Of a DNA stretch of 32,110 bases, positions 6,807 to 20,535 are shown piece by piece. This DNA is from Methylobacter sp. (GTDB lineage: Bacteria; Pseudomonadota; Gammaproteobacteria; Methylococcales; Methylomonadaceae), in assembly GCA_030655535.1 (NCBI GenBank), contig JAURVK010000008.1:1-32110 (forward strand). Direction: 5' to 3'. The notes under the pieces were generated by a model. It was not told where the DNA came from. It did not search any database and saw nothing but the letters and a program-made list of their open reading frames with translations. Position 1 is the first letter of the stretch. Every line of letters starts with the position of its first letter. A program made the translations under genes and the position numbers.

Positions 6807-7873
6807 ATGTATTAACAGGCTATATCGTCAGGGAAATAGTAAAGGGCTCTTTTATTGCCATTTTATTATTATTGACCTTATTTAATTTATTTACTTTTAG
6901 CGACCAGCTAAAGGATCTGGGCAAAGGCAGCTACGGCTTAACCGAGATTTTTTATTATCTTGCGCTGACCTCGCCGACCGTTTTTTATGAATTGATGCCT
7001 GCCTCTGCGTTATTAGGCAGTCTGTTTATATTGGGTGCGATGGGTAATAATCGCGAACTGATTGCGATGCAAGCCGCCGGCTTGTCTGTTATGGGGATTA
7101 TTAGAGCGGTTATGCTGGCCGGTGCGATTTTAGTTTTTATTGCCCTATTGGTCGGTGAATTCATTGCACCGGTAACCGAACGGACGGCACGGATATTGAA
7201 AGTTACCGCCCAGAATGAGCAGGTTGTTATGGGGGGCGAATATGGACTGTGGCTGCGCGAGGGCAAAAAATTCATTAATGTACGAAGCATACAAGACGAC
7301 GGAAATTTAGCCGACATCAGTATTTATGAGCTGGACGATCAGCGTCATTTGAGGCGGTCAATTCATGCAGAGAAAGCCTCTTTTCAAGGCAATAAGCAAT
7401 GGAAATTAGAGCAAATCAAACAATCGGATATTTCAATACAGCAGGTGACGGCAAGCAGTCAAAATGAGCAGCTATGGCAATCAACCGTTGCCCCGGATTT
7501 GTTAAAAATTGTTGTGGTCAATCCGAATAACCTGTCCATGTATGATCTGGCTATGTATATCGGTTTTTTAAAGGACAATCATCAAAAATCGCATAGTTTT
7601 GAGCTGGCTTTCTGGGGGCGGGTGGTCAATCCGCTGATTGTTTTTGTGATGTTGTTGGTGTCTGCGCCCTTTGTTATCGGCGTTAAACGCGGCGTTAACG
7701 TAGGCGGAAGGATGATGATAGGCATTGTCATCGGCATGGGATTTAATATCATCGATAAAATAGTCGGTCATATCGGCTTGATTTATGAACTTAATCCCCC
7801 GCTAATGGCAATTGCTCCCAGTCTGGCTGTTTTGATTGCGGCATTATTTGCTTTGAAACGGGTGCAAGGTTAA
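6803..7873 (+). CDS. lptG: LPS export ABC transporter permease LptG
   Basis: The 356-residue partner permease of LptF has the same layout. Three N-terminal helices include IVREIVKGSFIAILLLLTLF and the conserved ELMPASALLGSLFILG, followed by a periplasmic beta domain (~140-265) and three C-terminal helices. MGNNRELIAMQAAGLS is the coupling helix that contacts the LptB ATPase. It starts with GTG inside the lptF stop (GTGA), preceded by AGGGAGG at a good distance, so translation is coupled. LptB, C, A, D and E are not in this window, as is usual because lptFG stand apart in many genomes. Length fits the family. Confidence 0.93.
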   Translation: MNVLTGYIVREIVKGSFIAILLLLTLFNLFTFSDQLKDLGKGSYGLTEIFYYLALTSPTVFYELMPASALLGSLFILGAMGNNRELIAMQAAGLSVMGIIRAVMLAGAILVFIALLVGEFIAPVTERTARILKVTAQNEQVVMGGEYGLWLREGKKFINVRSIQDDGNLADISIYELDDQRHLRRSIHAEKASFQGNKQWKLEQIKQSDISIQQVTASSQNEQLWQSTVAPDLLKIVVVNPNNLSMYDLAMYIGFLKDNHQKSHSFELAFWGRVVNPLIVFVMLLVSAPFVIGVKRGVNVGGRMMIGIVIGMGFNIIDKIVGHIGLIYELNPPLMAIAPSLAVLIAALFALKRVQG

Positions 7874-7919
7874 TTCGACGCCGTGCAAACGGCGTTAACA
7901 TACGTAAATCGAGGTTAGT

Positions 7920-8462
7920 GTGACCATTAGAAAATTTAACGATAAGCAACCTAAAATCGGCAAGTCGGTGTTTATAGACGACAGCGCCGTGGTGATCGGC
8001 GACGTTACCTTGGGTGATGATGTCTCTATTTGGCCGACGACGGCGGTCAGAGGCGATGTTGAAGCTATCACGATCGGCGATGGCACCAATGTCCAGGACG
8101 GTTCGGTATTGCATGTGTCTCATTTCGGCAAGTTTACCGACAAAGGCCATCCTTTAATCATAGGAAAAGGCGTAACTATCGGGCATAGGGCGGTGGTTCA
8201 TGCCTGCACGGTGGGCGATTATTGCCTGATCGGGATAGGGGCGATTATTATGGACGATGCCGTTCTTGAAGATTATGTGATGCTGGGTGCGGGTGCGCTG
8301 GTTCCGCCGGGGAAAAAACTGGAAAGCGGCTATCTTTATGTCGGCTCGCCTGCCAAACAGGCAAGGCCATTAACAGAGACCGAAAAAGAGTTTCTGGAGT
8401 ACTCATCTTTGCATTACATTCATTTGAAAAACGAATATTTGAAGATGAAAGATGAAAGATGA
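7920..8462 (+). CDS. Gamma-carbonic anhydrase-like hexapeptide-repeat protein (YrdA type)
   Basis: This 180-residue protein has a left-handed beta-helix built from hexapeptide repeats (IGDVTLGDDVSI, ITIGDGTNVQDG, LIIGKGVTIGHRAVVHAC) and a C-terminal helix from ~150. Arg44/Asp46 (AVRGD), Gln59, and histidines 65 or 68, 89 and 94 sit where the gamma-class enzymes hold their proton-shuttle and zinc residues. Many YrdA-type homologues have unproven activity, so carbonic anhydrase is only a family assignment. It starts with GTG after GAGG at a spacing of five bases. The last six residues (KMKDER) and the stop are encoded by the GATGAAA heptamer tract that begins at 8444, so the 3' end has been overwritten by repeat sequence. 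Confidence 0.88.
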   Translation: MTIRKFNDKQPKIGKSVFIDDSAVVIGDVTLGDDVSIWPTTAVRGDVEAITIGDGTNVQDGSVLHVSHFGKFTDKGHPLIIGKGVTIGHRAVVHACTVGDYCLIGIGAIIMDDAVLEDYVMLGAGALVPPGKKLESGYLYVGSPAKQARPLTETEKEFLEYSSLHYIHLKNEYLKMKDER

Positions 8463-8541
8463 AAGGTGAAAGGTGAAAGGTGAAAGGGCGAAGGGCGAAG
8501 GGCGAAGGGCGAAGGGCGAAGGGCGAAGGGCGAAGGGCGAA
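8444..8541. repeat. Heptanucleotide tandem tract, 14 units in three blocks
   Basis: Direct reading gives GATGAAA x3 (8444-8464), GGTGAAA x3 (8465-8485) and GGGCGAA x8 (8486-8541), all at a strict 7-bp period. The first block encodes the C-terminus of the carbonic-anhydrase-like gene. The tract is G/A-rich on the plus strand and faces the C/T-rich tract at 8580-8698. Confidence 0.97.
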
Positions 8542-8579
8542 AAAAAGCTTGCATTGAGGTTTAAGATTTTTTTTCAATT

Positions 8580-8698
8580 TTTAGCCTTTAGCCTTTAGCC
8601 TTTAGCCTTTAGCCTTTAGCCTTTAGCCTTTAGCCTTTAGCCTTTAGCCTTTAGCCTTTAGCCTTTAGCCTTTAGCCTTTAGCCTTTAGCCTTTAGCC
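8580..8698. repeat. TTTAGCC heptanucleotide tandem tract, 17 perfect units
   Basis: TTTAGCC is repeated 17 times without a mismatch and then degenerates. Read on the minus strand the unit is GGCTAAA, a variant of the GGYGAAA units of the tract at 8444-8541, so the two tracts are imperfect inverted repeats with a 38-base gap. The aroE stop codon (TAA, 8693-8695) lies in the last unit. Confidence 0.97.
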
Positions 8699-9532
8699 TT
8701 TAAGCTGCCGCTCTGAATTCAACAGCTCAATAACAGGCAGGGTTTTAGGACGAACGCCACGCCAGATAAAAAAAGCTTCTGCCGCCTGTTCAACCAGCAT
8801 ACCCAGGCCATCCAGGCTTTTTAGCGCATGGTTTTCCTGCCCCCAACGCACAAAAGCGGTCGGTTCGTTGCCGTAGGCGAGATCGTAACACACGCCGTTT
8901 TTAGCCAGTAAACCGGTCGGTAGCGGCGGTAACTGGCCGCTTAAACTGGCAGATGTCGCGTTTAAAATCAAGTCGAATTGCCGGTTTTTTAAGGCATCAA
9001 AACCGCAGCCGCTGATGGAGCCGTCGTCGTCAAATTCGGCGGCCAGCTTGACGGCTTTATCAACGGTGCGGTTGGCGATAACAAGCGAGTGCGGGGCTTG
9101 TTCAAGAATCGGGGCTATGATGCCCCGACTGGCGCCGCCTGCACCCAGGATCAATATGCGGCTGCCCGATAAGACGATGGCATGATTGGCGATCAAGTCG
9201 GTTACCAGGCCGATGCCGTCGGTGTTGTCGCCTAATAGCGAACCGTCCGTTTGCAGTGCGAGCGTGTTGACGGCTTTGCTCAGTCGGGCGCGTTCGGTTT
9301 TACGGTCGGCGCAGTTCCAGGCAAGTTCTTTGAGCGGTACCGTGCAATTCAAGCCTTTGCCGCCGTCAGCAAAAAAGGTGGTAACGGCGCTCTGAAATTG
9401 TTCGGCGGGAACATCTTGAGCCGTGTATTCGAGCGTTTGTCCGGTTTGTTCGGCAAAAAGCCGATGAATGCGCGGCGATTTACTGTGTTTGATAGGGTGG
9501 CCAAATACAGCGTAGCGATCTATTAGCGTCAT
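8693..9532 (-). CDS. aroE: Shikimate dehydrogenase AroE
   Basis: This is a 279-residue NADP-dependent shikimate dehydrogenase of chorismate biosynthesis. The substrate-binding N-terminal motif is GHPIKHSKSPRIH (residues 11-23). NCTVPLKE supplies catalytic Lys68 and NTDGIG supplies Asp105. LILGAGGASRG (128-137) is the nucleotide loop, followed by NRT. I chose the ATG at 9532, which overlaps the upstream membrane-protein gene by four bases (ATGA). The open frame continues upstream, but that part does not resemble the family. The last two residues (KG) and the stop come from the GGCTAAA repeat, so the C-terminus has been reset by the heptamer tract without harming the core domain. Confidence 0.95.
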   Translation of the reverse strand: MTLIDRYAVFGHPIKHSKSPRIHRLFAEQTGQTLEYTAQDVPAEQFQSAVTTFFADGGKGLNCTVPLKELAWNCADRKTERARLSKAVNTLALQTDGSLLGDNTDGIGLVTDLIANHAIVLSGSRILILGAGGASRGIIAPILEQAPHSLVIANRTVDKAVKLAAEFDDDGSISGCGFDALKNRQFDLILNATSASLSGQLPPLPTGLLAKNGVCYDLAYGNEPTAFVRWGQENHALKSLDGLGMLVEQAAEAFFIWRGVRPKTLPVIELLNSERQLKG

Positions 9533-13983: not shown

Positions 13984-14517
13984 TTAAAAGTCGTCTTCGG
14001 TCAGAATTAAGGATTGGTATTTCGGGTTATCGTTAAATTGTCGGCGTAAGTTTTCTCGCCCCACTTTCTCTATATGCTGATGAAAGCTGGAAAAAGGATA
14101 ATCAGCCAGATTTTTCGTATAGCCATGTTTTACCGGATTGTTCAGCAAATAGTTAAGGTGAATTAAGTAATCCTTTTCAGCGCGTGGGCAATAATCCCAG
14201 TAATTCCACCACACTGGTAAATTAGAAGGATAAACTTTTCTGATTAACCGCCCCGACTGATAATGCACGCGACCCATGATTTTCGGTAAATCCTCACCTT
14301 TATGACTAAACGCCATCAGGTGGTAGTGATTATTTAGCGCCACCCAATGTTCCAGCGTCCAGGAAAATTCAGTAAACGTTTGTTGCAATAAGGCGATCAA
14401 CTGTTCTTTAAGTTGATTGTTTAATAGATGGCGTTTTTGATAAATACTGCCGGTTATAAAGTAACTGGTATTATCTAGCAGGAGGTGTGCTGGGCGATGT
14501 TGATAGCGTTTTAACAT
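13984..14517 (-). CDS. REP-associated tyrosine transposase (RAYT, Y1/HUH family)
   Basis: The 177-residue single-domain Y1 transposase resembles IS200/IS605 TnpA. The HUH motif is LNNHYHLMAF (His64, His66). The catalytic tyrosine is probably Tyr123 in HLNYLLNNPVKHGY, which aligns with VDYIYINPVKHG (Tyr115) of E. coli TnpA-REP. DYPFSSFH and the WWNYWDY segment are also typical. I chose the ATG at 14517, which has GGAG six bases before it. The frame is open further upstream only because it reads through the repeat array at 14557-14707. RAYTs are domesticated single-copy nucleases that cut and spread REP sequences. Repeats of one family sit on both sides here. Confidence 0.9.
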   Translation of the reverse strand: MLKRYQHRPAHLLLDNTSYFITGSIYQKRHLLNNQLKEQLIALLQQTFTEFSWTLEHWVALNNHYHLMAFSHKGEDLPKIMGRVHYQSGRLIRKVYPSNLPVWWNYWDYCPRAEKDYLIHLNYLLNNPVKHGYTKNLADYPFSSFHQHIEKVGRENLRRQFNDNPKYQSLILTEDDF

Positions 14518-14556
14518 AGTCAGCTCCAAAAGATAATTAAGGTGCGAAGCGTGGTT

Positions 14557-14707
14557 GGAGTGCAGGCTTCGCCTGCTTTGCAAGCAAAGCTTGCACTCCG
14601 GGTTGCGGTTGGAGTGCAGGCTTCGCCTGCCTTGCAAGCAAAGCTTGCACTCCGGGTTGCGGTTGGAGTGCAGGCTTCGCCTGCCTTGCAAGTAAAGCTT
14701 GCACTCC
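14557..14707. repeat. Three tandem 43-bp REPINs at a 54-bp period
   Basis: Copies lie at 14557-14599, 14611-14653 and 14665-14707, separated by the same 11-bp spacer (gggttgcggtt). Each contains GGAGTGCAGGCTTCGCCTGC, a 3-base linker, then the complement of GGAGTGCAAGCTTTGCTTGC. That is two related REPs head to head, each with its own small hairpin (GCAGGC-TTC-GCCTGC; GCAAGC-TTT-GCTTGC). Copies differ at single positions only. The array is between the RAYT start and the ubiC stop. Confidence 0.95.
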
Positions 14708-14718
14708 GGGTTGCGGAA

Positions 14719-20455: not shown

Positions 20456-20481
20456 TTTTAATCCTGATGCGTTGTAGTTAA

Positions 20482-20529
20482 GGCAAAAGGCAAAAGGCAA
20501 AAGGTTTTTTCGCCCTTCGCCCTTCGCCT
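20482..20529. repeat. Inverted heptamer cluster between pgk and rpoZ
   Basis: Three GGCAAAA units (20482-20502) and a partial fourth face CGCCCTT-type units (20511-20529; GGGCGAA on the minus strand) across a T-run. AGGCAAAAGGC can pair with the facing GCCCTTCGCCT with two mismatches. The pgk stop is eight bases away. It is the same repeat family as at 8444-8698, but far shorter. Confidence 0.85.
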
Positions 20530-20535
20530 AACTTG

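Follow-up and report, generated by a model that had tools for sequence, protein, structure and literature searches.

The facing heptanucleotide tracts between two convergent genes of Methylobacter sp., which belongs to a methane-oxidizing group, are probably one copy of a dispersed, REP/MITE-like intergenic Methylobacter element, the arms of which probably vary in length through slippage and may form a hairpin with a mild role at the 3' end of RNA. This study analyzed a stretch of 32,110 nucleotides (hereafter the window), a contig (JAURVK010000008.1) of a 2.76-Mb draft genome in 179 contigs (GCA_030655535.1; hereafter G000), and compared its heptamer tracts with those of other genomes, mainly of the same genus.

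Two heptamer tracts at the ends of a convergent gene pair

The feature comprises a left purine arm (8442-8541, plus strand) of three GATGAAA, three GGTGAAA, and eight GGGCGAA units, a 38-base spacer (8542-8579, plus strand), and a right pyrimidine arm (8580-8702, plus strand) of 17.6 TTTAGCC units, a count taken from a draft assembly and possibly limited by read length. The units of the right arm are 100% identical and read AAAGGCT on the minus strand. The spacer contains the dispersed core GCTTGCATTGAGGTTTAAGA (8547-8566), flanked by an A-run on its left and T-runs on its right. The array and repeat scans bore out the description in an earlier note on this DNA, namely 14 purine heptamers facing 17 perfect TTTAGCC units over 38 bases; the tracts had been located in the right place in that note, with limits that fell short by 2 bases at the left end and by 4 bases at the right end. 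The longest perfect period-7 run in the window was 116 bases, whereas none of 200 composition-matched order-1 Markov windows exceeded 15 bases, and the head-to-tail repetition of a 7-bp unit is far above chance, as in intergenic heptanucleotide tandem repeats.

The upstream neighbor encodes a hexapeptide-repeat protein (7920-8462, plus strand; Pfam Hexapep), for which the earlier note used a gamma-carbonic-anhydrase-like name, and the convergent neighbor is aroE, which encodes shikimate dehydrogenase (8693-9532, minus strand; Pfam Shikimate_dh_N, Shikimate_DH, and SDH_C). Both stop codons sit inside the arms, the TGA of the upstream gene (8460-8462) in the left arm and the TAA of aroE (8693-8695) in the right arm, and the two proteins end in ...NEYLKMKDER and ...ERQLKG, respectively. 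The element reaches into both convergent gene ends and supplies both stops. A second, short member of the family occupies the gap between pgk and rpoZ (20456-20535, minus strand), where the minus strand reads as 2.9 units of GGCGAAG, an A-run, and 3.6 units of CCTTTTG.

A family of heptamer elements with two arms and a core

The layout of the element consists of a purine heptamer arm of the AAAGGNN type, a core of approximately 40 bp, and a pyrimidine heptamer arm of the NNCCTTT type. Units of the AAAGGNN type are present in both arms of the window copy, on the plus strand in the left arm, where the inner units read AAGGGCG, and on the minus strand in the right arm. The pattern AAAGGNNAAAGGNNAAAGG, which represents three AAAGGNN units, returned 47 overlapping matches in G000 and 0 for the reversed control; one unit family is thus present at many intergenic sites of this genome, and the usual layout around its arrays is a purine arm, a short core, and a pyrimidine arm. 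Membership of a dispersed family with a conserved core had gone unnoticed in the earlier note. When three mismatches were allowed, the 20-base core was found in five copies in G000, all five preceded by a GGCGAAG-type arm and four followed by a TTTAGCC arm. When two mismatches were allowed, the genus yielded 19 matches in 9 of 23 genomes, and heptamer arms flanked 17 of these as judged by eye; the two armless matches (G021 and one in G005) are probably due to chance. An exact copy of the core is also present in Methylobacter tundripaludum SV96, as well as in a metagenome assembly of Methylobacter.

The linkage of the arms was examined in three genomes, in which an opposite arm was scored when 8 or more of the 10 positions of CCTTTNNCCTTT matched within 110 nt of an array. 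Such an arm lay 3' of 45 of 55 arrays and 5' of none of 58, compared with approximately 14% of shuffles; both arms were counted at three sites, and the downstream stretch was incomplete for three arrays. AAAGGCT, the most frequent unit of the family (21 of 58 arrays), contains no GGG. By eye, two subtypes were distinguished, one with GGGCGAA and TTTAGCC arms and the other with GGGCAAA and TTTCGCC arms, each having its own right half of the core. Among 55 distinct sites in three genomes, no other pair of arms was as long as that of the window copy, which has 8.3 and 17.4 perfect units, and long arrays were mostly one-armed. A correlation of -0.47 between the unit numbers of the two arms was discounted because the sites had been chosen for one three-unit array.

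A survey at the order level detected AAAGGNN arrays in 32 of 151 genomes, including all 10 drawn from the genus. The class-wide search for paired arms gave 7 of 369 genomes against 1 of 369 for the reversed control, too few for placing the origin of the element. Two loci in another gammaproteobacterial family (C6:34193 of G231 and C22:11144 of G361) carry AAAGGCT arms opposite pyrimidine heptamer arms with a short core between them, in an identical layout. Three genomes of genus g12 (G041, G111, and G141) contain hundreds of AAAGGNN array matches; because the reversed control also gave many matches in them, these arrays probably represent a different repeat phenomenon. In a 400-kb sample of G019, long arrays of period 7 were no commoner than those of other periods (one at period 7 and four at period 14), and the sole long period-7 array lay outside the heptamer family.

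Placement relative to genes

We determined the placement of 56 array sites in G000, G019, and G018 by using a simple gene caller that had been trained on the sample. Two of these (L070 and L071) are one site in a self-mirroring contig, leaving 55 distinct sites. The contig concerned, C124 of G000 (30,044 bases), carries this site at the mirror positions 8408 and 21637 and looks like an inverted-duplicate assembly artifact. The 55 sites comprised 39 co-directional, 9 convergent, 3 divergent, and 4 unresolved placements. None of the array sites lay wholly within a called gene, and some extended into a gene end, by as much as 23 nt. In the co-directional gaps, the element started within 50 nt behind the upstream stop at 35 of 39 sites, was nearer to the upstream stop than to the next start at 32 of 39, and had its end no more than 50 nt from the next start codon at 26 of 39. 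Bare arrays at 40 sites exhibited no stop-side preference, 20 lying no more than 50 nt from the stop and 24 no more than 50 nt from the next start; the preference emerged when whole elements were measured.

For comparison, the G019 sample contained 135 co-directional, 32 convergent, and 31 divergent gaps of 20 nt or more. Divergent gaps held 3 of the 51 resolved sites, compared with 31 of the 198 sample gaps (Fisher P = 0.11); this deficit is weak by gap number and becomes clear only against gap length (P = 0.005).

Folding of the arms and a possible role at RNA 3' ends

The RNA of the plus strand folded into a hairpin of -111 kcal/mol (z = -4.19), which was matched by none of 200 shuffles, and the plus strand folded as single-stranded DNA gave a z of -2.50 (2 of 200 shuffles as good). 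The RNA of the minus strand, which is the aroE sense, reached -73.8 (z = -0.34; 66 of 200 shuffles as good), no better than shuffles, and its pairing contained two mismatches per heptamer unit. The earlier note had predicted pairing at six of seven positions, with a periodic G-A mismatch and one G-U pair, in a hairpin carried by both mRNAs. Both the pairing scheme and the hairpin held for the plus-strand RNA, but neither held for the aroE-sense RNA. A periodic hairpin in RNA is therefore a possible property of the element. An Rfam scan of window positions 7800-9000 revealed no match above the gathering score; three sub-threshold matches, the best being MIR2118 at 37.1 bits against 85, were set aside as chance.

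In RNA, the arms are predicted to pair as an imperfect hairpin where the upstream transcript ends; the hairpin would be tolerated there and may modestly protect or delimit that 3' end. Many elements of the family folded no better than shuffles. In a stronger version, the element would be the 3'-end stabilizer suggested in the earlier note and would act in the manner of some REP hairpins, with the stem blocking 3'-to-5' exonucleases and setting the 3' end of the upstream mRNA. The position of the elements close behind stops (35 of 39 within 50 nt) is consistent with such a role, as is the finding that, among the 39 co-directional sites, z values below -2 were commoner in sense strands (21) than in antisense strands (14), one site having given no value. 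However, folding energy revealed no preference for the sense strand, which had the lower energy at only 19 of 39 sites, and long one-armed expansions leave the stem no longer. The arms were also compared in the pgk-rpoZ gap of 22 genomes of the genus, 15 of which (including G000) contain a heptamer-type inverted repeat as judged by eye, with another repeat in 4 and a short gap in 3. Across 15 species, the arms of the same element paired better than swapped arms (P = 0.00005), but no compensatory change was found within related groups (P = 0.25, 14 species). Despite the signal across all species, arm coevolution was thus rejected as proof of a selected hairpin. On balance, a stabilizing role by analogy with REP hairpins may apply, although we consider it doubtful.

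Probable replacement in the aroE gap

The preferred reading, a dispersed element with slippage-variable arms, was examined further in orthologous gaps. The gene pair flanking the aroE gap was present in 22 of 23 genomes of the genus. A heptamer element occupied this gap in five genomes (G000, G019, G018, G011, and G005), and G014 contained a possible remnant. The other gaps held a hairpin after GTAG, CACGAAAA, ACACGGAT, or CACAGAG inverted repeats, or nothing recognizable, the types being named by eye; in G020, the two stop codons overlapped and no element was present. The hairpin after GTAG was found in G007, G015, and G022, and in G007, the nearest relative, both genes of the pair stop beside this different hairpin. 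A four-gene tree grouped G000 with G007 and G015 and then with G022 (deep nodes weak). Because these closest branches all carry a GTAG hairpin, sequence comparison suggests that the window copy probably replaced an older hairpin of this type, which the heptamer copy would have displaced in this lineage.

Three other copies in G000 have cores 2, 4, and 5 edits away from that of the window copy, and a fourth copy (C83) is 9 edits away because its right side is missing. The core of the window copy differed by 11-13 edits from the cores in the aroE gaps of G019, G018, G011, and G005 and by 4, 5, and 6 edits from copies at other sites in G007, G005, and G022; since the latter copies are about as near as those within G000, the source of the window copy is not fixed.

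A further proposal is that the element is a non-autonomous mobile element with slippage-prone heptamer terminal inverted repeats, which settles behind stops, competes with other palindromes, and flips in place. In-place flipping is proposed because the orientation of the core in the aroE gap of G005 is opposite to that in G019, G018, and G011. The window copy has inverted arms, but no target-site duplication was definable for it, the compared gaps holding other repeats and offering no clean empty site. We regard this proposal as rather unlikely; if it is true, each inserted copy can grow its own ends and can provide stops in several frames, as 7 is not a multiple of 3.

Variation in unit number

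We compared the leuS-lptE gap across 22 genomes of the genus. The TTTAGCC arm in this gap comprised 5.3 units in G000, 18.4 in G019, and 3.4 in G011, and at least 12.9-14.3 units in G005, G009, and G010, the contigs of which end in the array; the purine arm comprised about two to five units as judged by eye. Hardly any gap was present in G012, G018, and G002, and the remaining gaps held the heptamer element, other heptamer elements, or other inverted repeats. Unit number thus differs between relatives at an orthologous site. Such large differences at orthologous sites support the suggestion in the earlier note that the locus is slippage-prone and expanded.

The arm-length differences between species probably come from slippage of the 7-bp unit, and the heptamer arms would lengthen and shorten in this manner during replication. 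The growth of one arm in several lineages fits 7-bp slippage and not selection for a longer stem. Very long arms such as those in the window would be best read as by-products of slippage rather than as a selected stem length.

The leuS-lptE loci (L154-L175) also revealed that the right flank of the heptamer element retains the end GTTCTATT, which ends another type of inverted repeat in relatives as well. This shared end suggests the layered insertion of repeat families in the gap.

Less likely readings: termination, quadruplex formation, and assembly artifact

A bidirectional terminator, in which the hairpin would halt RNA polymerase arriving from either side of the convergent pair, had also been suggested. 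The convergent gap and the strong hairpin of the plus-strand RNA accord with this function, and the aroE gaps of other genomes in the genus contain several unrelated inverted-repeat families, as if a hairpin were wanted there. However, neither arm is followed by a U-tract and a simple terminator scan returned no match in the tracts, which accordingly lack the combination of a G+C-rich stem and an immediately adjoining U-tract that marks an intrinsic terminator. The aroE-sense RNA folds approximately as well as its shuffles, 39 of the 55 sites lie between co-directional genes (with the element end no more than 50 nt from the next start at 26 of these 39), and G020 has overlapping stops and no element in the same gap. 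The suggestion was not borne out by these findings, and we consider termination improbable.

The GGG tracts of the left arm might instead form a G-quadruplex, or a nucleoid protein might bind the paired arrays, in line with proposals for the heptamers of Xanthomonas/Nostoc and of Geobacter; either is quite improbable. A formal G-quadruplex motif (8486-8537, plus strand) with eight GGG tracts and 4-nt spacers lies inside the left arm and is the only one detected when both strands of the window were scanned. The accessible part of a study on Geobacter metallireducens (PMC2700814) proposes the heptamers of that species as possible IHF/HU sites. However, the commonest unit of the Methylobacter family has no GGG. 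An assembly artifact, in which the repeat is collapsed or false, is very unlikely: the genome is a draft of 179 contigs, some contig ends in G018, G005, G009, and G010 fall within TTTAGCC arrays, and the 123-bp array is near short-read length, but the same element type is present in the aroE gap of four other genomes and a TTTAGCC arm is present at leuS-lptE in five other genomes, including G019. Contigs break in heptamer arrays, and unit numbers in draft assemblies are untrustworthy.

Comparison with known intergenic repeats

A literature search for a heptamer repeat in Methylobacter found nothing among the matches listed, subscription journals being mostly outside its reach. Elsewhere, the heptamers of Calothrix go by the name STRR. 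The dispersed palindromes known as REPs, of the GTAG and CGTC types, are described in the accessible part of Di Nocera et al. (2013; PMC3733652) as lying between co-directional or convergent genes near 3' ends, with GTAG termini that often provide a stop codon. The Methylobacter element resembles REPs as described there (PMC3733652) in being dispersed and palindromic, in lying near gene 3' ends, and in donating stops, but its arms consist of tandem heptamers, the number of which varies. Read by eye, the copies inspected carried neither the GTAG nor the CGTC tag of a REP palindrome at their arms or core. The window also carries a Y1/IS200-like transposase gene (13984-14691, minus strand; Pfam Y1_Tnp) over and beside three palindromic-looking 54-bp tandem repeats (14553-14716); this gene is putatively of the RAYT type and a possible source of REPs, and nothing among the window features ties it to the heptamer element.

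Direct heptamer repeats provide a second comparison. The TAACTGA repeats of Beggiatoaceae lie mostly just upstream of start codons in the genome studied, in 169 direct sets and one indirect set with 2-6 copies per set and up to 43 copies in other phyla, according to the accessible part of MacGregor (2015; PMC4679880). These repeats and the Calothrix heptamers mentioned in PMC4692102 are, like the Methylobacter element, intergenic heptamer repeats, and they are direct in those systems, as far as the accessible text describes. The accessible part of the G. metallireducens study (PMC2700814) reports multicopy tandem heptamers, as in Methylobacter, but their consensus differs (MTYCTGA) and 15 of 16 sites have five units; according to a figure legend, class-3 sites are depicted as strand-switching hairpins.

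The closest description is that of the GGGAATC and GGGGA(C/T)T heptamers of Xanthomonas and Nostoc. According to the accessible part of Rehm et al. (2015; PMC4692102), these heptamers are over-represented in intergenic regions but under-represented between divergent genes, those on the coding strand mostly lie no more than 50 bp from the stop, and their unit number varies strongly; the genes that flank them are mostly the same in two related species, and Xanthomonas has 70 and 75 heptamer pairs in convergent (inverted) orientation. The Methylobacter element shares 7-bp units containing G, a similar placement, and a similar length variation with these heptamers, as far as described there. It differs in its AAAGGNN unit, which mostly lacks GGG, and in the conserved core that links its arms. 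G-tracts of at least three bases, which characterize the Xanthomonas/Nostoc type, are present in the GGGCGAA arm but do not extend throughout the family; because AAAGGNN units mostly lack GGG, a quadruplex is not general in the Methylobacter family.

The element joins a known kind of intergenic heptamer/REP repeat and is distinguished by a unit of its own, a conserved core, and linked arms. Methylobacter is thereby added to the hosts of little-studied intergenic heptamer repeats, and the element indicates that such repeats can consist of two inverted arms on a conserved core, and the orthologous gaps in 22 genomes offer a series of empty, short, and long states for asking whether hairpins at gene ends act or are tolerated.
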